A DNA stretch of 64,000 nt, taken from positions 3,990,501 through 4,054,500 of the forward strand of contig NZ_CP020700.1 in the NCBI RefSeq assembly GCF_003932715.1, given 5' to 3'. Shown here piece after piece: positions 17,545 through 32,300 of the stretch. A program made the translations under genes and the position numbers. A model generated the notes under the pieces. That model made no database searches. It saw nothing but the letters and a program-made list of their open reading frames with translations, and was not told where the DNA came from. The first letter of the stretch is position 1, and each line of letters begins with the position of its first letter. The DNA is from Streptomyces tsukubensis. Lineage in GTDB: Bacteria > Actinomycetota > Actinomycetes > Streptomycetales > Streptomycetaceae.

Positions 17545-18654
17545 CTAGTAGTCGGTTTCCTCCCGGCTGATCGTGATCAGCCGGTCCCCGAACTGCAGCG
17601 TCGCCGACTCCGGGTCGGTGTAGTCCAGCATCCGCTTCCGCCGTACGACGGCGACCACCAGGTCCGTCGCCTCCCGGGGCGATCTGCCGATCTCGTCCTG
17701 GCGTACCGGGCGCTCCGTGAGGCTCAGCCCGCGGCCGTGCGTCATCAGGTCTTCCAGGGTGTCGGCGACATGGGGGCTGGCCGTCGACACCCCCAGCAGA
17801 CGGCCCGCCGAGCTGGAGCTGGTGACCACGGTGTCCGCGCCGCTCTGCTTCAGCAGCGGGACGTTCTCGTCCTCGCGGACCGCGACCACGATCGCGGCCC
17901 GGCGGTTCAGCTGGCGGGCCGTCAGCGTGACCAGGGTCGCCGTATCGTCCCGCTGGAGCGAGACGATCACCCGGGTCGCCCGGTCCAGCTCCGCCTTCAG
18001 CAGGGTGCGGGAGCGGGTGGCATCGCCCTGGACGGCGACCAGACCGTCGTTGTTCGCCGCGTCGATCGCCTTCTGCTGGGGATCGACCACCACGATCTTC
18101 TCCTTGGGCATGCCCTGGCCCTTGAGAGTCTCGACGGCATGCCGGCCCTTGGTGCCGTAGCCGATGACGACGACGTGGTCCCGCATCTTGGAGCGCCAGC
18201 GGTGGACGCGGACCTGCTGGCGAGTGCGCTCGGTGAGCACCTCCAGGGTGGTGCCGACCAGGATGATCAGGAACACCACGCGCAGGGGCGTGATGACGAA
18301 GATATTGGTCAGCCGGGCGGCGTCGCTGACGGGGGCGATATCGCCGTAACCCGTGGTGGAGAGGGTGACGGTGGTGTAGTAGGCGGCGTCGAGCAGATCG
18401 ACCTTGCCGTCGGCGTTGTCGTTGTAGCCCGCCCGGTCGAGCCACACGAGCAGGGTGGTGACGGTGAGCACCAGTATCGCCATCGCCAGACGGCGCAGTA
18501 CCTGCTGGAGCGGTGGGACGGCGGCTGCCGCGGGCATGGTGATGAAGCGCCCGGCCTCGGCGTCCTCCCGGGCCTCCGCCCGGGGGCGGGACCAGATGGT
18601 CCGCAGGATCGGGAACCTTCCCTCCCTGGGAGGCGGATGCTCCTCGTCCTTCAT
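17545..18654 (-). CDS. Two-TM potassium channel with RCK (TrkA-N) domain
   Basis: The 369-residue protein has two transmembrane helices flanking a K+ selectivity filter, TTVTLSTTGYGDIAP (about residue 100-114, GYGD signature). The cytoplasmic part is an RCK module: VVVIGYGTKGRHAVETL for nucleotide binding, VQGDATRSRTLLKAEL, and a TrkA-C-like tail. It would be a ligand-gated K+ channel in the membrane. The ATG at 18654 has a perfect GGAGGAG 7 bases upstream; earlier in-frame starts are not supported. Its RCK domain is clearly paralogous to the product of the divergent neighbour. Confidence 0.92.
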   Translation of the reverse strand: MKDEEHPPPREGRFPILRTIWSRPRAEAREDAEAGRFITMPAAAAVPPLQQVLRRLAMAILVLTVTTLLVWLDRAGYNDNADGKVDLLDAAYYTTVTLSTTGYGDIAPVSDAARLTNIFVITPLRVVFLIILVGTTLEVLTERTRQQVRVHRWRSKMRDHVVVIGYGTKGRHAVETLKGQGMPKEKIVVVDPQQKAIDAANNDGLVAVQGDATRSRTLLKAELDRATRVIVSLQRDDTATLVTLTARQLNRRAAIVVAVREDENVPLLKQSGADTVVTSSSSAGRLLGVSTASPHVADTLEDLMTHGRGLSLTERPVRQDEIGRSPREATDLVVAVVRRKRMLDYTDPESATLQFGDRLITISREETDY

Positions 18655-18826
18655 CGGGTGTCTCCTCCGGCATTGGCCGTCGTGCGGGGCATGAGTGACC
18701 ATGGTCGCGGATCCGTCCGGGTAAGTCTCGCCGGGTTCGATCGGTTGTGCCGGAGCCACCGGGAACGACGTACCGGGTATGTCGTACGGCGAGGTACCGG
18801 ACGGGACTGGGAGGAGCAGGCCGGAC

Positions 18827-19477
18827 ATGCGCGATCACACGATCATCGTCGGCTTCGGAACGAAGGGCCGCTCGGCGTTGCAGACGCTGATGGCGACGGG
18901 GCTGAGGAAGGACCAGGTCATCGTCGTCGACCCCAGCGGCAAGGTCATCGAATCGGCCGCTGCCGAGGGCATCGAGGGGGTCGTCGGCGATGCGACCCGC
19001 AGCGGGGTCCTGCTCCGTGCCGAGGTCCAGCGGGCCCGCCAGATCGTCATCGCGGCGCAGCGCGACGACACGGCCGTCCTGGTGACGCTGACGGCCCGGC
19101 AGCTCAACCGCCAGGCCAAGATCGTGGCGGCGGTCCGGGAGGAGGAGAACGGCCCGCTGTTGCGCCAGTCGGGGGCCGATACGGTCATCACCAGCGCCAG
19201 CGCCGCCGGACGCCTGCTGGGGCTCTCCGTCCTCAGCACCAGTGCCGGGGCGGTGATGGAGGACCTGATCCACCAGGGCAGCGGTCTCGACCTGGTGGAG
19301 CGGCCGGTGATAAAGGCCGAGGTGGGGCGGAACGTACGGGACACCGACGATCTGGTGGTGAGCGTGCTGCGGGGACATCGGCTGATCGGGTACGACGACC
19401 CCGCCGCGAGCCCGCTCCAGTTGACGGACCGTGTGATCACGATCGTCCGGGCGGGGTCGGCCGAAAACGACGGGTAG
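18827..19477 (+). CDS. Free-standing RCK/TrkA-N domain protein
   Basis: The 216-residue protein contains MRDHTIIVGFGTKGRSALQT, VVGDATRSGVLLRAEVQRAR, VTLTARQLNRQAKIVAAVRE and QSGADTVITSASAAGRLLGL. It aligns along its whole length with the RCK half of the divergent K+ channel, but has no membrane segment. It could assemble with that channel as a hetero-oligomeric gating ring, or be a TrkA-like subunit of another transporter. The ATG at 18827 was chosen because GGAGGAG lies 10 bases upstream; an in-frame ATG at 18779 lacks a binding site. The two genes look like a duplication followed by loss of the pore. Confidence 0.85.
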   Translation: MRDHTIIVGFGTKGRSALQTLMATGLRKDQVIVVDPSGKVIESAAAEGIEGVVGDATRSGVLLRAEVQRARQIVIAAQRDDTAVLVTLTARQLNRQAKIVAAVREEENGPLLRQSGADTVITSASAAGRLLGLSVLSTSAGAVMEDLIHQGSGLDLVERPVIKAEVGRNVRDTDDLVVSVLRGHRLIGYDDPAASPLQLTDRVITIVRAGSAENDG

Positions 19478-19533
19478 CGGCCCCGGACGCCCGGAGCGGA
19501 CCTGACGGGGGGTGCGGGAGTAGCCTCGCGGCC

Positions 19534-20526
19534 ATGTACGCGATCACGATTCCGGAACCCGGCGGACCCGATGCGCTGCTCTGGGCCGAGGTGCCCGACC
19601 CCGTGCCCGGTGAGGGCGAGGTGCTCGTCGAGGTGGTGGCGAGCGGGGTCAACCGCGCGGATGTGCTCCAGCGGCAGGGCTTCTACGATCCTCCGCCGGG
19701 CGCCTCGCCGTATCCGGGCCTGGAGTGCGCGGGCCGGATCGTCGGGATCGGCCCGAGCGTGTCGGGCTGGACCCTCGGCGACGAAGTGTGCGCCCTGCTC
19801 GCGGGCGGCGGGTACGCGGAGAGGGTCGTGGTGCCGGCCGGGCAGGTGCTGCCGGTGCCGAAGGGCGTCGACCTGGCGGTCGCCGCCGCTCTGCCGGAGG
19901 TCGCCGCGACGGTCTGGTCGAACGTCTTCATGGTCGCCCAGCTGCGGCCCGGCGAGACCGTGCTGATCCACGGCGGGGCGAGCGGGATCGGCACGATGGC
20001 GATTCAGCTCGCGAAGGCGGTCGGGGCCCGGGTGGCGGTCACCGCGGGCGGCCCGGAGAAGCTGGCGCGCTGCGCCGAGCTGGGGGCGGACATCCTGATC
20101 GACTACCGGCAGCAGGACTTCGTCGACGAGCTGCGCCGGGCCACCAACGGCGACGGCGCGGACGTCGTCCTCGACATCATGGGCGCGAAGTACCTGGACC
20201 GGAACGTCCGCGCCCTGGCGGTCAACGGACGGCTCGCCGTGATTGGGCTCCAGGGCGGGGTGAAGGGCGAACTCAATCTGGCGACCCTGCTCGGAAAGCG
20301 GGCGGCGATCACCGCGACCTCGCTGCGGGCCCGGCCGCTCGACGAGAAGGCGGCCATCGTGGCGGCGGTACGGGAGCACGTCTGGCCGCTGGTCGAATCG
20401 GGCCGGGTCCGGGCGGTCGTCGACCGGGAGTTCCCGCTGCGGGACGCGTCGGCGGCCCATGAGGCGTTGGAGTCGGGGACGCACGTGGGCAAGCTGCTGC
20501 TCCGCACCGGAAGCCCGGGGGCCTAG
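19534..20526 (+). CDS. NAD(P)H:quinone oxidoreductase, zinc-independent alcohol dehydrogenase superfamily
   Basis: The 330-residue protein matches the PIG3-type quinone oxidoreductase family. It has GVNRADVLQRQGFYDPPPGA near residue 40, PGLECAGRIVGIG, VCALLAGGGYAE, ALPEVAATVWSNVF and the dinucleotide-binding loop IHGGASGIGTMAIQLA near residue 150. These enzymes reduce quinones or similar electrophiles with NADPH and lack the zinc ligands of true alcohol dehydrogenases. It starts 56 bases after the RCK gene and ends convergently with the SLATT gene. Confidence 0.9.
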   Translation: MYAITIPEPGGPDALLWAEVPDPVPGEGEVLVEVVASGVNRADVLQRQGFYDPPPGASPYPGLECAGRIVGIGPSVSGWTLGDEVCALLAGGGYAERVVVPAGQVLPVPKGVDLAVAAALPEVAATVWSNVFMVAQLRPGETVLIHGGASGIGTMAIQLAKAVGARVAVTAGGPEKLARCAELGADILIDYRQQDFVDELRRATNGDGADVVLDIMGAKYLDRNVRALAVNGRLAVIGLQGGVKGELNLATLLGKRAAITATSLRARPLDEKAAIVAAVREHVWPLVESGRVRAVVDREFPLRDASAAHEALESGTHVGKLLLRTGSPGA

Positions 20527-20545
20527 GCACCGGGAGCGGGGCAGG

Positions 20546-21070
20546 TCAGGTGCCGGAGGCGGGGCGCTGAAGCTGAGGAGGTACCCCGACCGGGGAGGGG
20601 AGGTTCCTGAAGAAGCGCAGGGACTCCTCTTCCCGGATGTGGAGGACCTGGCCGATCAGGGTGTGGGCGGCCCCGGGGTCGGGCGGGCCGTCGCCGGACT
20701 CCTTGGCGGAGGCGTAGGCGGCATACGCACGGGTGAGATCGGTCTCCGTCTGGCGGAGCAGCACCCAGGAGGTGTCCCAGCGGTAGAACTCCTTGAGCGC
20801 GGTGCTGACCGCCACCAGACAGCCGACGCCGGAGATGACCACGCTCTTGTTCGGCAGGTCCAGGATGGTGAGCAGGGGCAGTGCCGCGGCGCTGAGGATG
20901 GTGACGACACCGCTGATCCGGTAGAAGCGCCGGTGCCAGCGGGCGCGACTGTCGTAGAAGCCGATCAGTTCGCGTACGTACGCCTCGGCGTTCGTGATGA
21001 AGTCGGCGCCCGTGTCGAGCAGGCGCGGCGTTCTGGAAGCCGGACGGCGGCGGTTGCCTGTCTCGTGCAC
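20546..21070 (-). CDS. SLATT/DUF4231-type two-TM membrane protein
   Basis: The 174-residue protein has a hydrophilic N-terminus, a charged helix (YDSRARWHRRFYRIS), and a transmembrane hairpin (ISGVVTILSAAALPLLTILD, then SVVISGVGCLVAVSTALKEF). A soluble helical tail follows, with WDTSWVLLRQTETDLTRAYAAYA. This is the SLATT/DUF4231 pattern, a small pore- or anchor-like module often found as a membrane component of bacterial conflict and nucleotide-signalling systems. It is the last gene of the five-gene operon, 71 bases after the patatin gene. In this context it could be a membrane-perturbing effector or an anchor. Its function here is not shown. Confidence 0.75.
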   Translation of the reverse strand: MHETGNRRRPASRTPRLLDTGADFITNAEAYVRELIGFYDSRARWHRRFYRISGVVTILSAAALPLLTILDLPNKSVVISGVGCLVAVSTALKEFYRWDTSWVLLRQTETDLTRAYAAYASAKESGDGPPDPGAAHTLIGQVLHIREEESLRFFRNLPSPVGVPPQLQRPASGT

Positions 21071-21141
21071 GGTGTCTCCCGGGGCAGGTCAGAAGGGTCA
21101 GAGGGCCAGACGGCCAGAAGGGGCAGCCGGTCTGCCGTGCT

Positions 21142-22257
21142 TCACGGCGGTGGTGCCCCGGCGCGCATCCGTTGCAGGGCGGCCAGCATCGTGGATTCGG
21201 CGGCGGCGAGGGTCCTGCGGCCTTTCAGCAGCTTCTCGGTCTCGCCGAAGCGTGCGGCGGCGTCGCGGTAGCCGAGGGTCCGCAGTGCGCCGACGCGTTC
21301 GGGTGAGAACGACATGAGCCCGGTCAGCGGGCCGAGGGGACCGGGCGGGATGATCGGCACGCTGGGCCGGATGTCGATCCGGACGAGTCCGGTCACCGCG
21401 CCGGGCGCCACCCGGGCGTCGGGATGCAGATGCACGACAACGAGAACGTCGCAGTGTTCCTTCTCGGCGAAGGCCCGTACCGGGGTACGGTCCCCGCGGC
21501 CCAGCCCGCCGTCGAGATAGGCACAGCCGTCGACCACCCGCGTCGGAAAGACGAACGGCAGGGCGGCGCTGGCCAGCACCGCCTCCCGGACCTCCGGCGC
21601 TTCCAGATCGTTCAGCCGGATGATGTCGGCCCGGGCACCACCCATCCACCGGGCGAACTCCACCAGGTACCGCAGTCGCTCGGGCACCGCCTCCCGGTCC
21701 AGCAACGGATAGGCGGCGACCCACAGCGGCCGTCCGGCCCGGATGTGCTCGGGATCCACCGCCGCGTCGACCAGCTCTTCGAGGAGCGCCAGACGGCTCT
21801 TGAGGGCCGTCAGCCGCCGGTGGAACATCTTCAGCTGTTGCGCCGTGCTCTCCACGCCGACGCCCGCGGCGTCCAGTGGCAGGCCCCGGTCCTCGGACGG
21901 CGCGACGCCCATACGGGTGGAGAAGCGCTCCCAGAACGCGGCGAGCCGTGCGACACCGTCGAAGAGTGAGTCCTCGCTGGCCAGTACGGCACCGTTGAGG
22001 GCGCCGATGCTGGTTCCGGCGATGGCGGAGATCCGGGTGCCGCGCTCCGCCAGATAGTCCAGAACGCCCAGTTCATAGGCGCCTTTGGCGCCGCCGCCCG
22101 CCAGCACCAGCCCGATCCTCAGGGGGGTGAGCGGGCCCGACGGCACCGGGCGCCGGGCAGCGGGAACGGCCGGCGGGTCCTGCTGGGCAGGTAAAGGGCG
22201 CCTGGAGACCTCCAGCGCCTGCTGCGCGATGCGGTTGAAGTCCTCCTGTCCGGTCAT
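21142..22257 (-). CDS. Patatin-like phospholipase
   Basis: The 371-residue protein has all patatin hallmarks. The oxyanion-hole loop GLVLAGGGAKGAYELGVL lies near residue 50, the nucleophile elbow AGTSIGALNGA (Ser in GTSIG) near 80, and the catalytic Asp in AYLDGGLG near residue 255. The first 45 residues are a Pro-rich linker. It is expected to hydrolyse acyl chains from membrane phospholipids. Patatins are common effectors of antiphage systems, but many are housekeeping. The ATG overlaps the preceding gene's stop by ATGA, so it is coupled to the Hsp70-led operon. Confidence 0.9.
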   Translation of the reverse strand: MTGQEDFNRIAQQALEVSRRPLPAQQDPPAVPAARRPVPSGPLTPLRIGLVLAGGGAKGAYELGVLDYLAERGTRISAIAGTSIGALNGAVLASEDSLFDGVARLAAFWERFSTRMGVAPSEDRGLPLDAAGVGVESTAQQLKMFHRRLTALKSRLALLEELVDAAVDPEHIRAGRPLWVAAYPLLDREAVPERLRYLVEFARWMGGARADIIRLNDLEAPEVREAVLASAALPFVFPTRVVDGCAYLDGGLGRGDRTPVRAFAEKEHCDVLVVVHLHPDARVAPGAVTGLVRIDIRPSVPIIPPGPLGPLTGLMSFSPERVGALRTLGYRDAAARFGETEKLLKGRRTLAAAESTMLAALQRMRAGAPPP

Positions 22258-23246
22258 GCGCTGCTCCCGAGTTCCCGCAGCCGAGAGCGGCGTGAATCCG
22301 CCTCCGCGAACTGCTCCCTGATGATCTGCCGTACCAGTTCCTCGGCGCTCAGGCTCGGGGCGACGTAGTCCGAGCCGTTCCCGGTGGCGGTGCGCAGTGC
22401 CGCTTCCGCGGCGGCGTCCGGATCGACGCCCTCCACCGTGGTCGCCAGCGCCGTCTTCCGCAGCGCGGAGCTCAAGGGGCCACGGGTTCCGGTCAGTGCC
22501 TCGGGGACGCCTTCGCCCAGCAGCTCGGCGACCATGATCCGGTTTTCGTCGCCGGGGAGCGTGCGGGTCGATTCGGCCAGCAGGCCCGCGATCGGTCTGA
22601 TGCCGTCGTACCACGGCTCCGGCGGGTCCTGGAGCATCCGCTCGGCCAGTTCGTACTCGACACCGGCTCCGGGCTTCGATGCGGCGTACTCCCCCGCGGG
22701 GCCGCCCGCCACCTCCCGGGCCAGCAGCATCGCCCCGGCCAACCGGCCCAGGTTCGGGTCGGGTCGCGGATGCCGCCACCGGCGCACCGCGCGGTCGACG
22801 GCCAGTGTGCTCTCCACCCGGCGCAGCCGCTCGTCTTGTTCGGCGAGGCCCCGACCGGTCTGCTCGGCGAGCTTCGCCAGCGCGATTCCCAGGTCCCGGA
22901 CTCCGCCTTCGGCCCACTGGAGCCGGGCGTCGAGCCGGTCCACGCGGTGGTTCACCCGGGTCACCTCGTCGGTGACCTCGGCAACCACGAGGTCGGTGGC
23001 CGCGAGCCGGTCGGTGAGTTCGGAGATCCACGCCAGGGTGCCGCGCTGGGCACCGACCAGGGCGCCGGTGACCGCGAGGTCCCGCCGCCGGCTGTGCCCG
23101 GTGACCTGGGCGAGCAGCCGGGCGAAGAAGCCCTCGCGGGCCCTGGCCCGCGTCAGATCGTCCGCGGTGTGCAGGTCGTTGAGCAGCTCCAGCAGCAGCC
23201 GGTCGTCGACGAGCGGGACGCCGCGGGCGATGTCCGGCAGCTTCAC
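22254..23246 (-). CDS. Uncharacterised coiled-coil protein of the Hsp70-patatin operon
   Basis: I do not recognise this 330-residue protein with confidence. It begins VKLPDIARGVPLVDDRLLLE at a GTG whose GTGA overlaps the preceding stop. Residues 15-60 are helical and charged (LLNDLHTADDLTRARAREGF). Residues 60-165 contain heptad-like coiled coil (EVTDEVTRVNHRVDRLDARL). The C-terminal half is Ala-rich and helical. The FF.RLL..VTG..RR segment near residue 42 reminds me weakly of the RdcB/YjcZ-type regulators of diguanylate cyclases; this is a low-confidence thought. No signal peptide or membrane helix is seen. It sits between the other unknown protein and the patatin gene, with 4-base overlaps on both sides. 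Confidence 0.7.
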   Translation of the reverse strand: MKLPDIARGVPLVDDRLLLELLNDLHTADDLTRARAREGFFARLLAQVTGHSRRRDLAVTGALVGAQRGTLAWISELTDRLAATDLVVAEVTDEVTRVNHRVDRLDARLQWAEGGVRDLGIALAKLAEQTGRGLAEQDERLRRVESTLAVDRAVRRWRHPRPDPNLGRLAGAMLLAREVAGGPAGEYAASKPGAGVEYELAERMLQDPPEPWYDGIRPIAGLLAESTRTLPGDENRIMVAELLGEGVPEALTGTRGPLSSALRKTALATTVEGVDPDAAAEAALRTATGNGSDYVAPSLSAEELVRQIIREQFAEADSRRSRLRELGSSA

Positions 23247-24130
23247 CGGCCGGTTCCCGGGGCGGGCGGCGGGGCGACGAAGACGACGGGCTTGGTGAGA
23301 GTCTGCGGCCGGGCGCCCCGCATGACGTACGAGGGTGCGATCAGGAACTCCGGGCGTGCCCCGGGGGCCGGTTTGACGGGCCATGGTTCGTAGTCGTCCG
23401 CGGAGAGAGCGGTCACGTCGACCGGGGAGTCCAGCTCTCCGGTGATCGGCAGACCCACGACGGCGTCGCGCAGTCTCGCTGCCTTGCCGAAGGTCGTGGG
23501 GAAACCGGTCCGGAAGCCGGAAGTGTCGGTCGCCAGGTTCAGCTCTCTCAGTTCGGCGACGATCTGCTCCGGCTTTCCGGACATCGGCTGGTCGAGCGGT
23601 TCGAAGAGCAGCGCCACGAGCTTGCGGGCGATCTCCGCCCGGCGCCGCGCCAGTGCCGTATCGTCCTCGCCGGTCTGCTGCGGGCAGAGCAGTTTCACCA
23701 GGTACCGCACGTCCTGCTGCACCAGCCCGCTGTAGCTCTGGGCGAGTTCCAGGTGGCGGCGGTGGATGTCGGAGGTGGTGTGACCGCTGTCGATCGCATT
23801 GCGGACCCCCTGGTTGCGCAGGGCGTCCAGGATCAGTTGGACGTCGCGGGCGACCGCATCGAGGCGCTTGTTCAGGTCCGCTACGGCGCGGAGGACCACC
23901 GTCTGATGCTCCGCCATCCTCGATGTGAGGTGATCGGTCTGCTGCCGGAGATCGGCGGCGACCTCGTTGAGCAGCCAGTCGTTCACGGCTTCGAGGTCGC
24001 TCTGCGATACGGCGTTCCCCTGCAGAGAATATGGTCCCTCTTTATCGCTTTTACCGAAAAGCCCCATGCTGGACCCCGTTGGCTCGCCCTGCTCTTCGTC
24101 TTGGTAGGTGCCGAAACCGTCGTTCTGCAT
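23243..24130 (-). CDS. Uncharacterised coiled-coil protein immediately after the Hsp70-like gene
   Basis: I do not recognise this 295-residue protein. Residues 45-125 form a probable long coiled coil (VNDWLLNEVAADLRQQTDHL, then MAEHQTVVLRAVADLNKRLD). A helical middle contains IHRRHLELAQSYSGLVQQDV. The C-terminus is Pro-rich with no membrane helix. The long N-terminal coiled coil before a compact domain recalls GrpE-like Hsp70 partners, but no GrpE motif is visible. The ATG at 24130 is 4 bases after the Hsp70 stop. An internal ATG at 24067 (MGLFGKSDKEG) is an alternative, and bases around it are unusually AT-rich for this genome. It overlaps the next gene by GTGA. Confidence 0.7.
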   Translation of the reverse strand: MQNDGFGTYQDEEQGEPTGSSMGLFGKSDKEGPYSLQGNAVSQSDLEAVNDWLLNEVAADLRQQTDHLTSRMAEHQTVVLRAVADLNKRLDAVARDVQLILDALRNQGVRNAIDSGHTTSDIHRRHLELAQSYSGLVQQDVRYLVKLLCPQQTGEDDTALARRRAEIARKLVALLFEPLDQPMSGKPEQIVAELRELNLATDTSGFRTGFPTTFGKAARLRDAVVGLPITGELDSPVDVTALSADDYEPWPVKPAPGARPEFLIAPSYVMRGARPQTLTKPVVFVAPPPAPGTGR

Positions 24131-24134
24131 GGGA

Positions 24135-25988
24135 TCAGCCGCCCGTCCGGCCACGACGTCCGTACAGCTCGGAGAACTCGATGGTCGCTCTGAGGCGTAC
24201 ACCGCCCTGCCGGTCCTGGGTCTCGACGGCTATCTCGGTGCCGCCGAAGGCGTAGTAGATGTCGAGTTTCCGCTTGTCCATGCGCGTTCCCACCGATCCG
24301 CTCACGTCCGCAGTCACGGTGCCGATCCGCTCGCAGCCCGCCTCGGTCGTGTACTGCGGGTCGTCGCTGTAGGTCGCGAACAGTCCGAGTTTGAAGCGGA
24401 CCTCGGTCGACGGCACTCGCATCTCGTGGTTCCTCGTCTCACCGACCGTCACTTGAGCGCCGCGTTCGACCACGACACGGAATCGGTCGCTGCACATCTC
24501 TTCGCCCAGCTCGTTGCGGAAGTGCTTACCCGCCGGGTCGACTCCCTCGCGGAAGGGCATCGCGCACTCGTAGCCGTACGTGTACTTCGAGCGGCGGCCC
24601 CAGATGACGGCGGGGTCGTAGGCGAAGTGCACGGCGCCGCCGAGGACCGCGGACGCCGGATCGCGCGGCATCACCACCTTCACCTTGCCGCCGAACCGCT
24701 GGGCGATCCGGTCGCGCAGATAGGTGGAGCGGGAGAAGCCGCCGACCACGACGATCTGGTCCACGCCGGTCCTGGGGCCGTTGTCGACCACGATCCGGCG
24801 CTGTTCTTCGATCGTCTCCAGAATGGGCCCGACCACCGTTTCATGGAGGTCGACGATCTCGTCCGGGGTGATGACGATCTGGTACGGCTCCCCGTAGGCC
24901 AGCTCGGTCAGCCGCTCCTTCACGGGCGGGGACAGGGCCTCCCAGAGCCGTCCATGCACGTCCAGGGTGCACGGCAGGGTGAAGGTCGGTGAACCGTCGG
25001 CTCCGGTCTCGGAGGTCAGGCCGACCTTCGACCTCTCCCAGTGGTCCTCCAGCGCGGCGATCTCCCGCGGACGGGAGACGAGCAGCTTCTCCAGCTCTTC
25101 GGCCCCGAAGCGCTTCGCGAGCACCTCGGTCACGAAATGCCGGTTGATGTAAGCGGATCCCAGGCGTCCGCCGTCGGCGATGCCGATCTCGGCCAGCCGG
25201 TCGTCACCGACGCCTTCCGGGCGGATCTGGTAGCTGGTGATGTCGACGGTGCCGCCGCCGCAGTCGACCACCATGAAGCGGCTGCCGTCCGTCCCGACGT
25301 CGAGACGTCCTTCCGGCCGGCTGGTTTCCAGCAGGGTGCCGGGAGTGAGCGCGCAGTACACGGCTGCCGCCTCCGGTTCGCCGACGAGGAGGAGCCGTTC
25401 CTCGTCCGCGGGGATACCGGCGGCGGCCGCGGCATCGCGCATCACCTGCTTCTCGTGGTCCTTCCAGATCGCGGGCACGGTGATGCACCACCGGATGTCG
25501 TCGGCGCTGAAGCCGAGACCTCCGTAGTTGGTCGCTTCGATGTCCTTGAGAGCCGTGGTGTACAGATGGCGGAGGTAGGCGGCGATCAGCGCGGGCACTA
25601 CCGAGGCGGGGTCGCCGGCCTCGGCCAGATTGCCGACGAAGCGCGGCACATCGGCCGGTGGGGCGTCGGCCCGCAGCGCCATCTTGAACCGGGTGGCGTA
25701 TCCGTATCCGTTCGGGTTGTTGCGGCTGTTCTCGACCTGCCAGAGCTTGTCGGCCTCGTACCCGAACGCCTTCGCGTCACCGTGCACATCCACCAGGACG
25801 GACGTCAGATCCTTCGGATAGGAGATGCCGCGCTCTTCCTTGAAGGTCTGGTAGGCGATGCGGCGGTTTTCCGAGAGGTCTTGCAGATCCTGCACCGTGG
25901 CCCAGGCGAACCCGGAACCGTGGGTCCCGAAGTCGATCGCCACGACGACCTTGGCCACAAACGGCTTGCGCTGCTCCGGCTTGCCCAT
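24135..25988 (-). CDS. HSPA12-like Hsp70-family ATPase
   Basis: The 617-residue protein has the actin/Hsp70 ATPase fold. Phosphate 1 motif VVVAIDFGTHGSGFA lies near residue 15, the connect region DIRWCITVPAIWKDHEKQVM near 165, phosphate 2 MVVDCGGGTVDITSYQ near 245, and the adenosine motif IVVVGGFSRSTYLRDRI near 430. The WC.TVPAIWK and EPEAAAVYC segments resemble animal HSPA12A/B more than DnaK. There is no canonical DnaK substrate-binding domain or lid; the last 130 residues are beta-rich and different. It is the first gene of the operon, with GGAGGGGGATC before the ATG. Peptide chaperone, sensor and scaffold roles are all possible. Confidence 0.85.
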   Translation of the reverse strand: MGKPEQRKPFVAKVVVAIDFGTHGSGFAWATVQDLQDLSENRRIAYQTFKEERGISYPKDLTSVLVDVHGDAKAFGYEADKLWQVENSRNNPNGYGYATRFKMALRADAPPADVPRFVGNLAEAGDPASVVPALIAAYLRHLYTTALKDIEATNYGGLGFSADDIRWCITVPAIWKDHEKQVMRDAAAAAGIPADEERLLLVGEPEAAAVYCALTPGTLLETSRPEGRLDVGTDGSRFMVVDCGGGTVDITSYQIRPEGVGDDRLAEIGIADGGRLGSAYINRHFVTEVLAKRFGAEELEKLLVSRPREIAALEDHWERSKVGLTSETGADGSPTFTLPCTLDVHGRLWEALSPPVKERLTELAYGEPYQIVITPDEIVDLHETVVGPILETIEEQRRIVVDNGPRTGVDQIVVVGGFSRSTYLRDRIAQRFGGKVKVVMPRDPASAVLGGAVHFAYDPAVIWGRRSKYTYGYECAMPFREGVDPAGKHFRNELGEEMCSDRFRVVVERGAQVTVGETRNHEMRVPSTEVRFKLGLFATYSDDPQYTTEAGCERIGTVTADVSGSVGTRMDKRKLDIYYAFGGTEIAVETQDRQGGVRLRATIEFSELYGRRGRTGG

Positions 25989-26299
25989 GATCCCCCTCCC
26001 GCGCGGGCGGCGCCGACGGACCCCACACCCGTCTGTCCCGGGACCGCGTCGCGAAAAACGATCAACGCAGCCCGAAGCGCCGCACCGGCGTGCTTATGCG
26101 TTCTTCTGCCCGACGTTATCCGAGTGCGGGGAAAAGTGTGTGCCCCTTTCTCAGCCTCTGGAAAGGTTCCGGTGGCACATCATTGATGCCCATCCGGCTC
26201 AGAAGTCACAGGAGAATCAGAGGTCAAGGGTTTCCGGGATAAAAGTGCTGATGGGGTGCCGGGAAATTCGCTGTATACGGTCGGGAATTCTCCCTCCGC
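25989..26299. other. Intergenic region upstream of the Hsp70-led operon
   Basis: These 311 bases contain no convincing gene. The part at 26050-26290 is clearly richer in A+T than the surroundings (for example GGGATAAAAGTGCTG and CTGTATACGG), which fits a promoter region for the minus-strand operon. I looked for HAIR (HspR) and CIRCE (HrcA) heat-shock operators and found neither. Confidence 0.5.
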
Positions 26300-27544
26300 T
26301 CACTGCTCCGCGACGGTGGATCTGCCGTCGGCGCCGGCCGGATCCGGCCCCACGGCCGGACGCGGCCCGGGGACGGCCGTCGGCCCCTTTCCCTGTCCCC
26401 CCACTGCCGCCAGCGTCAGGGTCACACCCACCGAAGCGGCCGCCATCAGCGACATCGCCGTGGCCGGAGAGGTCAGTTGGGCCAGGGTGCCCGCCAGCAG
26501 GGCGCCGAGGCCCTGGCAGCCCGCCATGCCGGTGCCGTGCAGTCCGAGGGCCTGGCCGGTGAGTGCGTCGGGGGTGAGGGAGAGCAGGCGTTCCTGGAGG
26601 ATCAGGCTCGCCGCGTAGCCGACGGAGGCGACCGTGACGGCGACGGCGGCCGGTACGACGCCGGGCCGCAGCACGAAGAACAGATAGGGGATCGCCAGCA
26701 GCAGCCGCAGCGGGACCACCAGCCGGGAGCGGACCGCGGGCGGCACCAGCCGGCCCACCAGCAGATCGCCCGCGAACATGCCCAGCGCCGCGCACGCGTA
26801 CAGCGTTCCGGCGTCCCCGGGGGCGTACGAGATGTACAGCGAAGCACTGCCGACCACCAGCCCGTTGGGGAGCCACAGCCCCAGATACGTCAGTCGGCGG
26901 GGGCGCGACGACCACAGCCGGGCGTTGCTGCGCCAAGAGGCCGAGGGCGACGGGCGGCCGGACGAGCGCGCCGGGCGGGCCGTGAGGCCGAGGCGGGTGA
27001 CGAGGGCGCTCAGCAGGTGCAGTGCCACCGCGAGGAGCAGGCAGCTCTGCGGGGACAGGAGCGTGAGCAGGGCGCCGCCCGCCGCGAACCCGCCCACCTG
27101 CATCAGGCCCCAGAGCATGTTGTAGACCGAACGGCCCAGTACGTAACCGTCCTTGGACAGGATCTCGTTCAGCAGCCCCCCGCGGGCGCCCCCGCCCAGG
27201 GAGGCGACCAGGCCCTGGAGGAGGACGACGGCGAAGACCGCCGCGACCGGCAGACCGGGCAGCGCCGGAATCGCCGTGACAGCGGCGAACGCGAGGGCGA
27301 GGGTGGTCAGGAGCGCCCGCGGCGGCAGCCGGTCGGAGGCCGAGAGCAGGAAGGCGGCTCCCAGCAACTGCGCGAGCTGCGGCCCGAACATGCTGAGCGC
27401 CGAAAGGAGCGGGGAGCCGGTGGCCCGGAACACCAGCGTTCCAAGGGCCAGGCCGCCGATGGTGTGGGCCGCGCCGGAGGCGCCGAAGGAGAGCAGGAAC
27501 GGGGTGAATTCGGGGGTCCGGAACAGGGTGCGGTAGCTGCGCAT
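26300..27544 (-). CDS. Major facilitator superfamily transporter
   Basis: The 414-residue protein has about 12 hydrophobic segments and begins MRSYRTLFRTPEFTPFLLSF, the usual opening of actinobacterial drug-efflux-type MFS permeases. It contains GGLALGTLVFRATGSPLLSA and, between the halves, a loop rich in Ser, Arg and Pro. The last 40 residues are hydrophilic. The ATG at 27544 was chosen over a longer in-frame start because it matches the family N-terminus and leaves a 67-base spacer to the divergent ArsR-type gene. That arrangement suggests the neighbour regulates it. The substrate is unknown. Confidence 0.87.
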   Translation of the reverse strand: MRSYRTLFRTPEFTPFLLSFGASGAAHTIGGLALGTLVFRATGSPLLSALSMFGPQLAQLLGAAFLLSASDRLPPRALLTTLALAFAAVTAIPALPGLPVAAVFAVVLLQGLVASLGGGARGGLLNEILSKDGYVLGRSVYNMLWGLMQVGGFAAGGALLTLLSPQSCLLLAVALHLLSALVTRLGLTARPARSSGRPSPSASWRSNARLWSSRPRRLTYLGLWLPNGLVVGSASLYISYAPGDAGTLYACAALGMFAGDLLVGRLVPPAVRSRLVVPLRLLLAIPYLFFVLRPGVVPAAVAVTVASVGYAASLILQERLLSLTPDALTGQALGLHGTGMAGCQGLGALLAGTLAQLTSPATAMSLMAAASVGVTLTLAAVGGQGKGPTAVPGPRPAVGPDPAGADGRSTVAEQ

Positions 27545-27611
27545 GCACCGCAGTCTCCGAACTCCGGGAGGCTCTGTTGAATGTTTCGCCGGTACACGAA
27601 AGGTCGTACGC

Positions 27612-28589
27612 ATGGGCTTGTGGCAGATCGGCATCGACACCCTCGCCTCCAGCCGGTTTGCGCTGTCACCGTTCGCCGAGACCTTCGCGAGCCTGCGCCT
27701 GCTGCATACGGGGAGCGGCGCCCATCCGGGCGAAAGGGCCTGGCTGCGGGCGCAGCTGCCCGGCTACCGGGCCCGTCTGGCGGCCGATCCGGTGGCGGCG
27801 CCGCTTGTCCGGGCGGCCTTCGGCACCTCGTGGAACGCCGACTTCCTCTGCCCCGCGCCGGGCGCCGGGGAGGACTTCGAGGAGACCGTGGCCCGGGTGC
27901 GTGCGGCCGGGCCCGGCAAGGCGCGGGACGATCTCCGGGTGTCCCTCCGGGGTCCGCTTCCCGCCGCCCTGGACCGGGACGATCTGCCCGAGCGGGCGGC
28001 CGCGCTTCTGACGTATGTGTGGGAGGCGGCCGTACGGCCCCACTGGGAGCGCCGGAGACGCGTCCTGGAGGCCGATGTGGCCGCGCGGACCGCGCAGGTG
28101 AGCCGGGGCGGCTGGGCGGCCGTGCTGGACTCGCTGAGACCGGGGACGCGATGGCTCGGGGAGAGCGGCTTCCAGGTCAATCCGTGGCCGTACCCGCCGC
28201 GGGAGATCCCCGCGGGGGCCGAGCTGCTGTTCACTCCGGTGACCCCGAGGACCGGATGGGTGGCGTGGCAGGAGCGCGAGCGGTACGCGGTCTTCTACCC
28301 CTGTCTCGGGGTGCTCGCCGAGGACCACCACCGGCGCCCCGTCCCGACCGGGCTCGGGACGCTCGTCGGCAGCGCCCGGGCCGGAGTGCTGGCGCTGCTC
28401 GGAACCCCCTTGAGCACGACCCAGCTGACGGCCCTGACCGGGCAGGGGCTGGGGTCGGTGGGCCGGCATCTCCGGGTGCTGCTGGACGCGGGGCTGGTGG
28501 AGCGGCGCCGGGCCGGACGATCGGTGCTGTACGTCCGCACGGCGGCCGGGGAGGTGCTGGTGGCGGCCTCGGGCCCGGGGACTGGCTGA
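27612..28589 (+). CDS. ArsR-family regulator with DUF5937 domain
   Basis: The 325-residue protein has a large N-terminal domain (SRFALSPFAETFASLRLLH, WNADFLCPAP) typical of DUF5937. A C-terminal ArsR winged helix follows, with RAGVLALLGTPLSTTQLTAL and GSVGRHLRVLLDAGLVERRR. The ATG at 27612 has GAAAGG 8 bases upstream. It is divergent from the MFS permease gene and probably controls it. The inducer is unknown. It ends convergently with bpa, with a hairpin between. Confidence 0.85.
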   Translation: MGLWQIGIDTLASSRFALSPFAETFASLRLLHTGSGAHPGERAWLRAQLPGYRARLAADPVAAPLVRAAFGTSWNADFLCPAPGAGEDFEETVARVRAAGPGKARDDLRVSLRGPLPAALDRDDLPERAAALLTYVWEAAVRPHWERRRRVLEADVAARTAQVSRGGWAAVLDSLRPGTRWLGESGFQVNPWPYPPREIPAGAELLFTPVTPRTGWVAWQERERYAVFYPCLGVLAEDHHRRPVPTGLGTLVGSARAGVLALLGTPLSTTQLTALTGQGLGSVGRHLRVLLDAGLVERRRAGRSVLYVRTAAGEVLVAASGPGTG

Positions 28590-28611
28590 AGCCGTTCGAC
28601 GGTGGAGCGAC

Positions 28612-28660
28612 GGCCCGCGGCGGGGGCCCGGGACGATCCGGGCCCCTGCCGCCGCGGGCC
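28612..28660. terminator. Bidirectional terminator between the ArsR-type gene and bpa
   Basis: A long GC stem with GGCCCGCGGCGG on the left and its complement on the right closes a short loop (ACGAT), with a bulge of two or three bases on one side. It lies between convergent genes. Confidence 0.65.
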
Positions 28661-28668
28661 GGGACGGT

Positions 28669-29211
28669 CTACAGATACGGGCCCGAGCGCAGGGCGCCGT
28701 GGGCCGGGTCGTCGTCGTGCGGGGCGCCGGGAGGCAGGGCGCGGCGCATCTGCTCCAACTGGGCCCGGGCCGCCATCTGCTGGGCGAACAGGGCCGTCTG
28801 AATACCGTGGAACAGCCCCTCCAGCCAGCCCACCAACTGGGCCTGGGCGATCCGCAGCTCGGCCTCCGAGGGCACGGCCTCATTGGTGAACGGCAGGGAG
28901 AGCCGCTCCAACTCCTCGACCAGCTCGGGCGCGAGACCGTCCTCCAGCTCCTTCACGGAGCTGGCGTGGATCTCCTTCAGCCGTACCCGGCTCGCCTCGT
29001 CGAGAGGAGCCGCCCTCACTTCCTCCAGCAGCTGCTTGATCATGCTGCCGATCCGCATGACCTTGGCCGGCTGTTCCACCATGTCCGTCACGGGGACCTC
29101 ACGAGACTCGTCGTCGCCGTTACCGTCACCGCCGCCGAGAGCCATGCCGTCCTGCCCCACGACGAGGACGTGGGGACTCTCCTGCGAGCGTTCGTTCCTC
29201 GGCATATCCAT
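28669..29211 (-). CDS. bpa: Bacterial proteasome activator Bpa
   Basis: The 180-residue protein matches Bpa (DUF2587): VMRIGSMIKQLLEEVRAAPLD near residue 55, IHASSVKELEDGLAPELVEEL, then QAQLVGWLEGLFHGIQTALF. It ends in GPYL, the C-terminal tail that docks into the 20S proteasome and opens its gate independently of ATP. A four-helix ring-forming core is flanked by disordered ends, as in the mycobacterial protein. Start choice is uncertain among ATG 29211, ATG 29205 and GTG 29229. It is a lone gene bounded by hairpins. Confidence 0.92.
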   Translation of the reverse strand: MDMPRNERSQESPHVLVVGQDGMALGGGDGNGDDESREVPVTDMVEQPAKVMRIGSMIKQLLEEVRAAPLDEASRVRLKEIHASSVKELEDGLAPELVEELERLSLPFTNEAVPSEAELRIAQAQLVGWLEGLFHGIQTALFAQQMAARAQLEQMRRALPPGAPHDDDPAHGALRSGPYL

Positions 29212-29248
29212 GCCGCCATTCTCGCGCACCCGCGCGTCATCACGCGGT

Positions 29249-29288
29249 GTGCCCCCGGGCGGGAGTGATCACTCCCGCCCGGGGGCAC
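29249..29288. terminator. 40-bp perfect palindrome, probable terminator of the ABC transporter operon
   Basis: Bases 29249-29268 pair perfectly with 29269-29288, centred on GTGATCAC, with no loop. It lies between the end of the ABC permease gene (29448) and the start of bpa on the same strand. The central sequence is not parS-like. Confidence 0.6.
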
Positions 29289-29447
29289 GAATGCGCAGGT
29301 GGCCGCCGTGCCGTCCGGTCCGGGCCCCTGGAAAGGAGCCGCGGACCGGAGTCACTCCGGGTCTACCGGAGGGCCCGCTTCCGTCACCGCGGCCGGACCG
29401 GGCGCCGTCGCATCACGCCGCCCCGCTCCGGAGCTCCGCCGGTTCCG

Positions 29448-32300
29448 TCACGTCGTCTCGCGGCGGGCCAGCGCCCCCCGCGAACGGGTCATCAGCGCCG
29501 CCAGCAGCACCGCGCCCAGCGGGACGACGACCAGCAGGGCCCCGAGGGTCTCCCACGGCATGATGATCGGGACGTACGGGGCGGGCATCTCGTACCCGCT
29601 GTTCAGCGCGTCCTCGTACCAGGACTGTTCGTCCCGGCGCTCGGTGAGCAGCAGCCCGACCGCGGGCAGCACACCCGCCGCGGTCCCCAGCACCACACCC
29701 ATCGTGGCGACCACCCCGCACTGGAATCCGCTGAGGGTCCTGCGCACCCGCGGCGGGGCACCCACCGCGGCCAGCGTCTTCAGATCGGCCTCGGCATCGG
29801 CCTGGGAGAGACCCGTGGCGATACCGGCCGCACCGATGGTGATCAGCGCGGCGAAGGCGGCCAGCGCCACCAGCACGATGCTGGTGTCGGACTCGTAGCC
29901 CTTCTCGACGGAGAGGCTGATGCTGGTCCCGATCCGGGAGAGCTCGTCCTCCAGCTTCTGCAGGTCCTTGTCGGCGACCCCGCCGTCCGTGAGGACGTAG
30001 GAGCCGTACGGCACGGCCTTCATCGCGCCCGCGGACTTCAGCGCGGCGGGCGGGAGCACGGTCTGGAAGCCCCAGGCGTTCACATCGCCGGTCACCTCGT
30101 GCACCGGGAAGGACTTGATGACGCCGGGCTCCTCCTTGCCGGTCTCCAGAGCCTTGTCGGCGGCCTTGATATCGGTCACGACCTTGATGTTGACCGTGCC
30201 GCCGTCGCCGACGTGCTGCTTCTTGAAGGTGATGGCCTTGCCGGACTTCAGGGCCTGCTCCGCCGCCGGGTTCTTGATGCCCAGAACCTTCAGCAGCTTC
30301 TCGTCCGCGACGACCACCTCGCCCTGGTACGGGCCCTGTTCGTTCTTGCAGCGCCAGTCCTTGGCCAGGGCGCGCCGCTGCTCGACGGTGAACCTGGCCG
30401 CCGGGTCCTCCCCGTTGGGCACGGCCCCGTCCGAGTACAGCGGACACTTCTTGGCCTGCGGAATCATCAGTACGTACCGGCCGCAGGCCGGGTCGTCGTC
30501 GTACATGGCGCAGGTGGACTTCCCGACGACGAGCCGGTCCACATCGGCCCGGACCCCGACCGGGATGGTCCGCTGGACCGCGGTGCGGATCGCGGGTACG
30601 TCACGGCTGTTCTCGTCGGTGACGATGACCGATCCGTGCGGGGCCTGCGCGGTGTACGCCGCCTTCTGCTGGGCCTCGTCGCTCGCGGCGTAGGTGGCCA
30701 CCGCCACGGTGCCCGCGACGGCCGCCAGGACCGCCGCCACCGCCGGGGCCGTACGGCCGCGGTTGCGGACCGCGTCCCGCAGGGCCAGCCGCGGCGACAG
30801 CGGCAGAAAGCCGCCGAGCCGCCCGAAGAGCCCGACCAGGACCGGGGTGAGCGCCACGATGCCCAGCTCGGCGATGATCGCGCCGGCACCGACGATCACA
30901 AAGCTTTCGAGCATCAGCGAGCCGGCCAGGGCGATGGTGGCGCCGAGGGCCACCGCGATCAGCCCGATCACCGGCAGGACCCGGCTGCTGCGCCGGATAC
31001 CGCGGCGTCCGGTCAGCGACGACAGGACGGACTGACGGGACGAGGTGACGGCGGGGACGAGCGCCGCCATCGTGCCGGTGAACACCGCCAGCAGGGCGAT
31101 GCCGAGCAGCTCCAGCGGCCGGGCGTCGAAGGCGCCGAACCGCGCATCCATCATCTCCTCGAAGGTGCCCTGCAGCGTGATGCTGAGGACCACGCCCAGG
31201 GTGGTGCCGATCACCGCGGCCGCCGCGCCGAGCACCAGACCGCCGGCGAGCACGATGGCGCGGATATGGCTGCGCTCACCGCCGTTGGCGCCGACCAGGC
31301 CGAGCTGCCGGCGGGAGCGCCGGGCGCCCACGGCGAAGGCCGGTCCGGCCAGCAGACAGATCTCCAGCAGCGCCAGGCTGACGACGGTGGCCAGAGCGGT
31401 CAGCTCTTCGGCCTGGAAGCCCGGGCCGTCCATCGAGTACTTGGTGAAGCCGGGCTTCTGGTAGAGCGGGACCTCGGAGTCCGCGGGCTTGGAGAGAGTC
31501 ACCGCACGGGAGTCGACGATGACGCCCCTGGTGTTGGTCTCCTTCACCATGTTCCACGTGAAACCACCCTCGACGGCCGCCAGATAGGTCGTCGAGCCGT
31601 AGTCGGTTCCCAGCTCCGCCTTCTTCAGCGCCTCGTTGAGCGGCTTGATGAAAGCGCCCGGCAGGGCGTTGATCTGGTCCGTCTTCAGACTGCTGGGCAG
31701 TTCGTAGGCACCGGTGATCCGGTACTCGCGGTCCAGGTGGCGCGCGGTCAGCTTGCCGCCCACCTTCAGACCGCTCTTCTTCAGGAACGCGGTCGTCGCG
31801 GCGACCTCGCCCTCCTGTGCGGGGAACCGGCCCTCGGTGAGGTCCATGATCCCCGCGGCCATCGGGTCCGTCGCCTTCAGCTCACGGACCTCGGTGGCCA
31901 GCAGTCCGTGTTCCGTCTCCAGCTTCGCCCGGCCGACGGTGTCCGGCAGCAGCCGGGCGTTCTTGGGGGCCGCCTTGCGGACGTCCGTCGGGCCCTCGGG
32001 GTACGGCTCGTTCTCCTTGAGCACCCTCGCGGGCTCGTAGAGCCGGGCGTCGGGGGCCTGGAAGATGGCCTCGCCACCCATGCTCGGGCTGCTGAGCCGG
32101 GCGTCCGCCGCGCCCATCTCGCGCTCCAGCGTCTCCGTCGTGGAGAGTTCGGCGCTGCGGAGGGTCAGATCGGCGGCGCTGACACCCATGATCGGCAGGG
32201 CGATCATCGCCAGGACGAGGAAGCTGCGTCCCTTGGAGCGCCAGGCGTCGCGGCGGGCGATACGGAGCGCGGCCCGCCAGGAGTGGAACCATTTCTTCAC
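29448..32300 (-). CDS. FtsX-like ABC transporter permease
   Basis: The 950-residue protein starts MKKWFHSWRAALRIARRDAW, an N-terminal cytoplasmic helix followed by a TM segment (SFLVLAMIALPIMGVSAADL). A large exported domain leads into three TM helices around residues 285-400. A second TM block, another exported domain (with CAMYDDDPACGRY and paired cysteines) and a final three-helix FtsX domain complete the duplicated FtsX/MacB layout. Such permeases move lipids, peptides or act as mechanotransmitters. It lies 55 bases after its ATPase gene in a PadR-headed cluster. A near-consensus parS sequence is embedded at 31551-31564. Confidence 0.9.
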   Translation of the reverse strand: MKKWFHSWRAALRIARRDAWRSKGRSFLVLAMIALPIMGVSAADLTLRSAELSTTETLEREMGAADARLSSPSMGGEAIFQAPDARLYEPARVLKENEPYPEGPTDVRKAAPKNARLLPDTVGRAKLETEHGLLATEVRELKATDPMAAGIMDLTEGRFPAQEGEVAATTAFLKKSGLKVGGKLTARHLDREYRITGAYELPSSLKTDQINALPGAFIKPLNEALKKAELGTDYGSTTYLAAVEGGFTWNMVKETNTRGVIVDSRAVTLSKPADSEVPLYQKPGFTKYSMDGPGFQAEELTALATVVSLALLEICLLAGPAFAVGARRSRRQLGLVGANGGERSHIRAIVLAGGLVLGAAAAVIGTTLGVVLSITLQGTFEEMMDARFGAFDARPLELLGIALLAVFTGTMAALVPAVTSSRQSVLSSLTGRRGIRRSSRVLPVIGLIAVALGATIALAGSLMLESFVIVGAGAIIAELGIVALTPVLVGLFGRLGGFLPLSPRLALRDAVRNRGRTAPAVAAVLAAVAGTVAVATYAASDEAQQKAAYTAQAPHGSVIVTDENSRDVPAIRTAVQRTIPVGVRADVDRLVVGKSTCAMYDDDPACGRYVLMIPQAKKCPLYSDGAVPNGEDPAARFTVEQRRALAKDWRCKNEQGPYQGEVVVADEKLLKVLGIKNPAAEQALKSGKAITFKKQHVGDGGTVNIKVVTDIKAADKALETGKEEPGVIKSFPVHEVTGDVNAWGFQTVLPPAALKSAGAMKAVPYGSYVLTDGGVADKDLQKLEDELSRIGTSISLSVEKGYESDTSIVLVALAAFAALITIGAAGIATGLSQADAEADLKTLAAVGAPPRVRRTLSGFQCGVVATMGVVLGTAAGVLPAVGLLLTERRDEQSWYEDALNSGYEMPAPYVPIIMPWETLGALLVVVPLGAVLLAALMTRSRGALARRETT
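31551..31564. other. Near-consensus parS sequence inside the ABC permease gene
   Basis: GTTCCACGTGAAAC matches the Streptomyces parS consensus GTTTCACGTGAAAC at 13 of 14 positions. It lies within coding sequence, 14 kb from the perfect site. Degenerate parS copies are known in Streptomyces, so binding is plausible but unproven. Confidence 0.5.

Follow-up and report, generated by a model that had tools for sequence, protein, structure and literature searches.

Within a 64-kb window of the Streptomyces tsukubensis genome (the whole stretch of DNA analysed, at 3.99–4.05 Mb of a 7.96-Mb contig; genome size 8.02 Mb), we found a real, conserved and mobile operon of five genes that encode an Hsp70-fold ATPase, two proteins here called gene 2 and gene 3, a patatin-like phospholipase and a SLATT membrane protein with two transmembrane (TM) segments. 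The five-gene unit is rare and horizontally acquired; its parts are known, and its function we infer. We suggest, at a probability of roughly 0.4, that the operon encodes a horizontally moving, chaperone-gated membrane effector, probably used in conflict with phages or other elements. The Hsp70–patatin–SLATT composition is new as far as our literature searches show: neither such an operon nor the pairing of the Hsp70 with gene 2, newly recognised here, was described in the records that they returned from the open subset of PubMed Central, in which subscription journals are mostly uncovered.

The original prediction, made from the letters of the window, had placed five minus-strand genes at 20546–25988, and every coordinate, overlap and gap proved exact on rechecking (Table 1). 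The Hsp70, patatin and SLATT labels that it assigned were all borne out by matches above the curated cut-offs of Pfam and NCBIfam, and genes 2 and 3 matched no family above cut-off in either. The conservation of gene order across loci, together with ratios of nonsynonymous to synonymous substitution rates (dN/dS) below 1, indicates that the operon is more than chance.

Gene 3 was the most specific marker of the operon and was carried by only 2 of 150 Streptomyces genomes, that of S. tsukubensis included, and by 1 of 296 genomes in a phylum sample, again that of S. tsukubensis; co-occurrence is thus patchy and not universal, as had been expected. A single motif-based search through 84,980 species genomes, made with a two-sequence gene 3 alignment, yielded seven further gene 3 loci (L020–L026) from 232 pattern-bearing stretches; more distant gene 3 relatives would be missed, because the scan demands exact conserved peptides. 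With the window this makes eight loci, and in all eight Hsp70 comes first, followed by gene 2, then gene 3 and then patatin, gene starts outside the window being estimates. The expectation that the five genes would rarely be separated therefore held, with one replacement of SLATT and one contig that ends before it, inside the patatin gene of S. bicolor (L020). SLATT comes next after patatin or after a gene for a glycerophosphodiesterase (GDPD) in six of the seven uncut loci (window, L021, L023–L026), and its place in L022 is held by a protein that has four hydrophobic regions and matches nothing in Pfam; this swap for another multi-TM protein is what would be expected of an effector slot. The extra gene between patatin and SLATT in L023–L026 encodes a GDPD in L025 (75.5 bits) and is alike in the other three. 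When searched with their own alignments, the patatin subfamily (E 1e-25) and the SLATT subfamily (E 1e-12) each had matches in those two of the 150 Streptomyces genomes that also carry gene 3 and in no others of that sample, which means that neither effector gene was seen away from the operon.

The operon genes are under purifying selection, with dN/dS below 1 for all genes and pairs compared. Measured against L024, values for L023, L025 and L026 were 0.10–0.18 for Hsp70, 0.34–0.47 for gene 2, 0.20–0.24 for gene 3, 0.17–0.27 for patatin, 0.17–0.35 for GDPD and 0.29–0.51 for SLATT. Gene 2 ranked highest or second highest in each of five pairs; its value reached 0.78 between the window and L021, a comparison made less reliable by high synonymous divergence.

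The operon lies in an insert of about 8.1 kb without counterpart in relatives, which also holds an MFS transporter gene and a regulator gene. The left and right flanks adjoin in the same orientation in at least 10 of 36 Streptomyces relatives, and in all eight relatives fetched, which were picked from those 10 for flank adjacency, the gap between the flanks was 78–291 bp, against about 8.1 kb in the window. The right-hand flank gene is a bacterial proteasome activator and the left-hand one, judged by eye, is quinone-oxidoreductase-like; in many other relatives the proteasome-activator gene is inverted or further off, so that the junction itself is variable (adjacent, inverted or apart) and possibly an integration hot spot.

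The operon has different surroundings in different carriers: tRNA-synthetase-like genes in L022 and, in both L024 and L025, a set of genes of fatty-acid type (all by eye). The S. hiroshimensis carrier has a serine recombinase nearby, and the S. bicolor contig has a sub-threshold integrase match as well as a protein with a CHAT (caspase-like) domain about 3 kb from the operon (L020:3359–4081). In a tree of 26 Hsp70 rows, rooted at the midpoint and with long branches among some rows from outside the five-gene unit, the five-gene Hsp70s fell on one side of a branch with 100/100 support, and the window protein grouped at 90/84 with those of S. bicolor, SID3212 and a second genus, Actinacidiphila. 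One carrier, L023, is filed as Streptosporangium, but in its operon copy and flank it nearly matches S. roseoverticillatus and is likely a misnamed strain.

Table 1. Features of the operon and its insert, in window coordinates.
Feature	Position	Strand	Details
Insert of ~8.1 kb without counterpart in relatives	20509..28651 (ends approximate)		flank spacing in 8/8 fetched relatives
Hsp70-fold ATPase (gene 1)	25988-24135	-	617 aa, ATG start
Gene 2	24130-23243	-	295 aa; 4 bases after Hsp70 gene
Gene 3	23246-22254	-	330 aa, GTG start; GTGA overlap with gene 2 at 23246-23243
Patatin-like phospholipase	22257-21142	-	371 aa; ATGA overlap with gene 3 at 22257-22254
SLATT/DUF4231 two-TM membrane protein	21070-20546	-	174 aa, GTG start; 71 bases after patatin gene
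MFS transporter inside insert	26300..27544	-	MFS_1 34.0 bits, cut-off 33.4
ArsR-type helix-turn-helix (HTH) regulator inside insert, divergent from MFS gene	27612..28589	+	HTH_20 29.6 bits (cut-off 27), HTH_5 24.4 bits (cut-off 22)

The first protein matched the Pfam HSP70 family (PF00012) at 33.1 bits against a cut-off of 20.6, and the NCBIfam models HscA and DnaK at 35.9 and 26.9 bits. Its profile aligned to residues 3–482 of the genome's own DnaK (hhalign probability 98.5, E 3.7e-15), a span that takes in the nucleotide-binding domain and the beta part of the substrate-binding domain (SBD-beta) and stops before the lid; an SBD-beta is thus possible, and binding of peptides by this Hsp70 plausible. 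All 26 rows keep D19, E204, D242 and D249, and 25 of them keep K102; we take these to correspond to the catalytic residues of DnaK, and the predicted ATPase residues appear intact. The protein had been described as HSPA12-like; no HSPA12 profile was among its Pfam and NCBIfam matches and no HSPA12 structure among the best 60 of 119 Protein Data Bank (PDB) matches. Searches of the phage-protein library PHROGs matched it to families of unknown function at 35.6 bits.

The patatin protein matched Pfam Patatin (PF01734) at 87.8 bits (cut-off 27.7) and was the only Patatin match of the genome at E 0.001; its best solved relative by sequence was PlpD, at 49.5 bits. The motifs GGGAKG, GTSIG and DGG, presumably the oxyanion glycine loop and the two halves of the Ser–Asp dyad (in GxSxG and DGG/A), were invariant in all seven patatin rows, with S83 (GTSIG) and D249 (DGG) intact in the window protein, as judged from these motifs. 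The SLATT protein, with two hydrophobic segments near residues 52–70 and 77–95, matched NCBIfam SLATT_1 (NF033634) at 77.9 bits (cut-off 41), Pfam DUF4231 at 32.5 bits (cut-off 24.7) and a PHROGs family of unknown function at 29 bits; its score against PspM (13.3 bits, cut-off 80) was too weak to count. SLATT proteins are predicted pore-formers and accompany some DRT9 defence systems (PMC12483538).

Gene 2 is a constant companion of the Hsp70 well beyond the five-gene unit. The wider Hsp70 family, whose distant members are about 32–38% identical to the window protein, was found in 17 of 392 Streptomyces genomes (E 1e-30; the S. tsukubensis genome and two five-gene carriers counted) and on eight Streptomyces plasmids, and at E 1e-40 no genome of the 296-genome phylum sample had it other than that of S. 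tsukubensis. In all five plasmids fetched, a set from which the matches H3, H4 and H5 were left out, a gene of 229–244 codons begins 7–28 bp after the Hsp70 gene, and profile comparison shows homology to gene 2 for the partners from these plasmids and from loci L016 and L017 (hhalign 98.2%, E 4.3e-14 over 185 columns; controls at most 1.1%). Immediately after its Hsp70 gene, every one of the 25 other loci counted has a gene 2 homologue; seven of these loci carry the five-gene unit and 18 do not, and the count omits the window, L019 (broken Hsp70), L040 (contig of L024) and L004 (contig of L025). When a joint partner profile was run over 4,914 stop-to-stop frames from the 25 loci it gave 25 strong matches, one per locus; 14 of the 25 partner genes had built the profile and 11 were independent of it. 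The Hsp70 and gene 2 are thus apparently an obligate pair. The original prediction had the Hsp70 act as a sensor with two partners, which calls for revision: gene 2 stood up as a constant partner across the wider family, whereas gene 3 turned up solely alongside the lipase. At L019:8422–9614 an Hsp70 of the same family lies in pieces, apparently a decayed copy.

The pair keeps varied company. At L018:11864–16888 it has a Tn7-like neighbourhood of TniQ and TniB plus sub-threshold matches to TnsA and a transposase core; at L044 it is beside a relaxase, and at L048 beside a gene with a DnaB domain and an integrase match that falls below threshold, several of these mobile-element matches being marginal. 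A kinase–TPR gene follows the pair at L017. At L014 the pair comes after vWA, PP2C, weak kinase, radical-SAM-type and AAA_2 genes; the same-strand run at L014:1632–13575 consists of vWA, PP2C and weak kinase genes (TerY-P-like), a radical-SAM-type gene, an unknown gene, AAA_2 (ClpB-like), Hsp70, partner and an M6 peptidase, and is a candidate chaperone conflict cluster. On four plasmids (L031–L033 and L035) a divergent gene of 84–90 codons with an HTH-like end, judged by eye, lies upstream of the Hsp70, and a shorter one (55 codons) does so on plasmid L034; this small gene is a possible repressor of the pair. At L016:1353–2684 a 443-aa protein without a Pfam match overlaps the start of the Hsp70 gene. 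A broader view, which we hold to be doubtful and offer only as a possibility, is that Hsp70 and gene 2 form an unrecognised obligate and mobile pair of ATPase and co-chaperone, which might serve as a plug-in immune sensor that responds to proteostasis rather than to one particular phage molecule and recruits varied outputs: the lipase with SLATT or another membrane protein (and GDPD), the kinase–TPR protein, or the AAA/TerY-P/radical-SAM cluster.

Gene 2 has H126 and Y268 in 26 of 26 rows and P266 and V283 in 25 of 26, with a small APxY motif at its C-terminus. Its AlphaFold model, made from an eight-sequence alignment (pLDDT 56.8), predicts a helix at residues 43–114, further helices to residue 225 and low-confidence strands, and a fold search with this model gave no matches at E 0.001 or below; by sequence, neither gene 2 nor gene 3 found a solved structure at better than E 0.25. 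The layout and the C-terminal motif suggested a GrpE, yet comparison with a set of 30 actinobacterial GrpEs and that of E. coli gave 0.5% and E 0.12 in hhalign, against 0.5% and 0.13 for a patatin control, and GrpE (PF01025) was absent from the best 25 of 63 families listed for 16 gene 2 members. Comparison of gene 2 with the start of DnaJ was negative, and a direct comparison of genes 2 and 3 detected no similarity between them.

Gene 3, modelled as all helix from an eight-sequence alignment (pLDDT 56.7), is a putative adaptor. YjcZ (PF13990) was matched by all eight members with E no higher than 1 (1.3e-7 at best; window 6.5e-6, L022 7.9e-5, L024 0.041); the window copy scored 26.1 bits, or 27.2 in another run, around the cut-off of 27, and was the sole PF13990 match in 149 genomes. 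Assignment of gene 3 as RdcB failed in the other direction, where RdcB, scored with the gene 3 profile, came out lower than several of 500 shuffles with its hydrophobic pattern kept; the signal is confined to Pfam, and the likeness appears marginal.

We infer a complex, its gating, a trigger, membrane damage and a benefit in the following form. The Hsp70-fold ATPase and gene 2 would be the sensor and regulator core, gene 3 the adaptor that ties this core to the patatin, and SLATT or another multi-TM protein the part that anchors in the membrane or forms a pore. In its resting state the complex would keep the lipase inactive or off the membrane; foreign or unfolded protein bound to the Hsp70, or a disturbed ATP pool, may alter the ATPase cycle, after which the lipase would act at the membrane and cause cell arrest or death of the abortive-infection type. 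We favour a chaperone-gated effector because the core has an apparently intact ATPase and a constant partner, the output is a lipase with an apparently intact dyad, and the membrane protein is replaceable. Spread by insertion and sparse presence also fit a conflict function better than a housekeeping one. Further points for this reading are the kept gene order, the joint presence of gene 3, patatin and SLATT, the place of the five-gene Hsp70s on one side of a branch with a second genus among them, the occurrence of the Hsp70–gene 2 pair on plasmids and beside mobile-element genes, and the high dN/dS rank of gene 2. There are precedents in the HSP70/GrpE components of GAP1-N2 conflict systems (PMC7159879), in the Hsp70-like domains of CoCoNuTs (PMC11090510) and in the dependence of bNACHT25 phage sensing on DnaJ (PMC12169576).

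Several observations weigh against this proposal. The close relatives L023–L026 share one flank, so the operon there looks vertically inherited and part of the distribution is vertical. Flanking genes are mostly of non-defence type: the proximity to other defence genes that had been anticipated was mostly not seen, as a PADLOC scan (E 1e-5) of 37 chosen proteins from six loci (flanks of L023 and L025 left out) picked up nothing beyond Csa3-type regulators, for which two models had two members each (best E 7.7e-7). PADLOC at E 1 matched none of the five operon proteins, except for the patatin with weak generic phospholipase models. The C-terminal part of the Hsp70 (the possible SBD-beta) scored 0.4% when compared alone, which is not significant, and viral contigs contained no relative of this Hsp70. 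The structure models of genes 2 and 3 are both of low confidence, and a GDPD in four loci suits lipid salvage or recycling as well as attack. Overall, the interpretation offered by the original prediction is partly supported.

The same gene set could instead be read as an envelope-stress or membrane-turnover module, in which Hsp70 and gene 2 sense stress and tune the phospholipase, GDPD recycles glycerophosphodiesters where present and SLATT anchors the complex. The position of GDPD between patatin and SLATT in four of seven loci, like a sequential pair for phospholipid degradation, and the mostly non-defence flanks speak for this reading, which we consider somewhat unlikely for a unit that is very patchy (2 of 150 genomes), is missing from near relatives, tolerates replacement of SLATT and has its Hsp70–gene 2 core also on plasmids and beside mobile-element genes. 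Those last occurrences bring in a role for the elements themselves, with Hsp70 and gene 2 serving the replication, establishment or maintenance of a plasmid or an integrative and conjugative element, and the lipase version left over in the chromosome as an addiction or exclusion cassette. Eight plasmids with the Hsp70 family, gene 2 in all five fetched, and the TniB/TniQ, TnsA, transposase-core, relaxase, DnaB and integrase matches at L018, L044 and L048 are in keeping with such a role. We nevertheless regard it as unlikely, since no plasmid was seen to carry the five-gene form (a plasmid search with gene 3 gave no match), the window insert contains, besides the operon, the transporter and regulator genes but none for replication or conjugation, and L023–L026 kept the unit across species divergence.

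A reading of the first protein as an actin-like ATPase that forms filaments (ParM/MamK type), with gene 2 as its adaptor and a lipid-modifying complex positioned by the two, is very improbable. ParM and ParR share a two-gene layout of ATPase and adaptor, which the plasmid pair resembles, and there are weak profile matches to MreB (15.0 bits) and MamK (15.7 bits); the HscA and DnaK profiles score higher, however, and the DnaK alignment reaches into SBD-beta.

Among known systems, the GTPase-centric GAP1-N2 conflict systems (Kaur et al. 2020, PMC7159879) resemble the operon in that actinobacteria and firmicutes encode HSP70 in their predicted conflict operons and in having SLATT as a predicted pore effector. 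Unlike them, the five proteins match no GTPase, GrpE, DnaJ or FNIII family in Pfam and NCBIfam, searches in which GAP1 was not looked for, and the main text of that paper uses the words 'patatin' and 'lipase' 0 times. CoCoNuTs (PMC11090510) are also described as a predicted defence system with an Hsp70-like ATPase (nucleotide- and substrate-binding domains) and coiled-coil partners, and they include TerY-P triads, as does the related locus L014. The five proteins, in contrast, match no McrB, McrC or HEPN family (Pfam, NCBIfam), and the degenerate Walker A-like motifs of CnuD, from which very low hydrolysis is expected (PMC11090510), differ from the conserved ATPase positions here. Effectors of the CapV type in CBASS share the use of a patatin-fold lipase at the membrane, but the operon patatin scored 21.1 bits against NCBIfam CBASS_lipase, far below its 200-bit cut-off, and no CD-NTase cyclase or sensor family was found among the five proteins and no cyclase family among the 37 flank proteins. 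In E. coli, RdcA and RdcB (YjdA/YjcZ), an NTPase and its soluble partner, activate the membrane enzyme DgcE (PMC6510439), which would be a precedent if the YjcZ match of gene 3 is real; there the NTPase is a dynamin-like GTPase and the output a diguanylate cyclase. The order of an Hsp70 gene and then a gene for a long-helix protein with a small C-terminal strand region, as in the low-confidence gene 2 model, recalls DnaK–GrpE–DnaJ, but gene 2 is not significantly similar to GrpE profiles and the operon Hsp70 has no lid region.

The role of chaperones in bacterial immunity is only starting to be shown, as with DnaJ and bNACHT25 (PMC12169576). An operon that is small and transferable and brings along an Hsp70, a partner dedicated to it and a lipase as its defined output would make an Hsp70 ATPase cycle as the trigger of membrane destruction a testable idea, and the Hsp70–gene 2 pair offers a genomic handle for finding more such systems.

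Around the operon, Rfam gave no match above gathering score over 18000–30000, and no common upstream element was obvious across the eight five-gene loci. A simple promoter and terminator scan returned one site of each kind, the terminator-like site being no more than shuffles give. The MFS transporter of the insert is probably separate cargo. The stretch holding the transporter and regulator genes (26300–28589) has matches at other places in many Streptomyces genomes.

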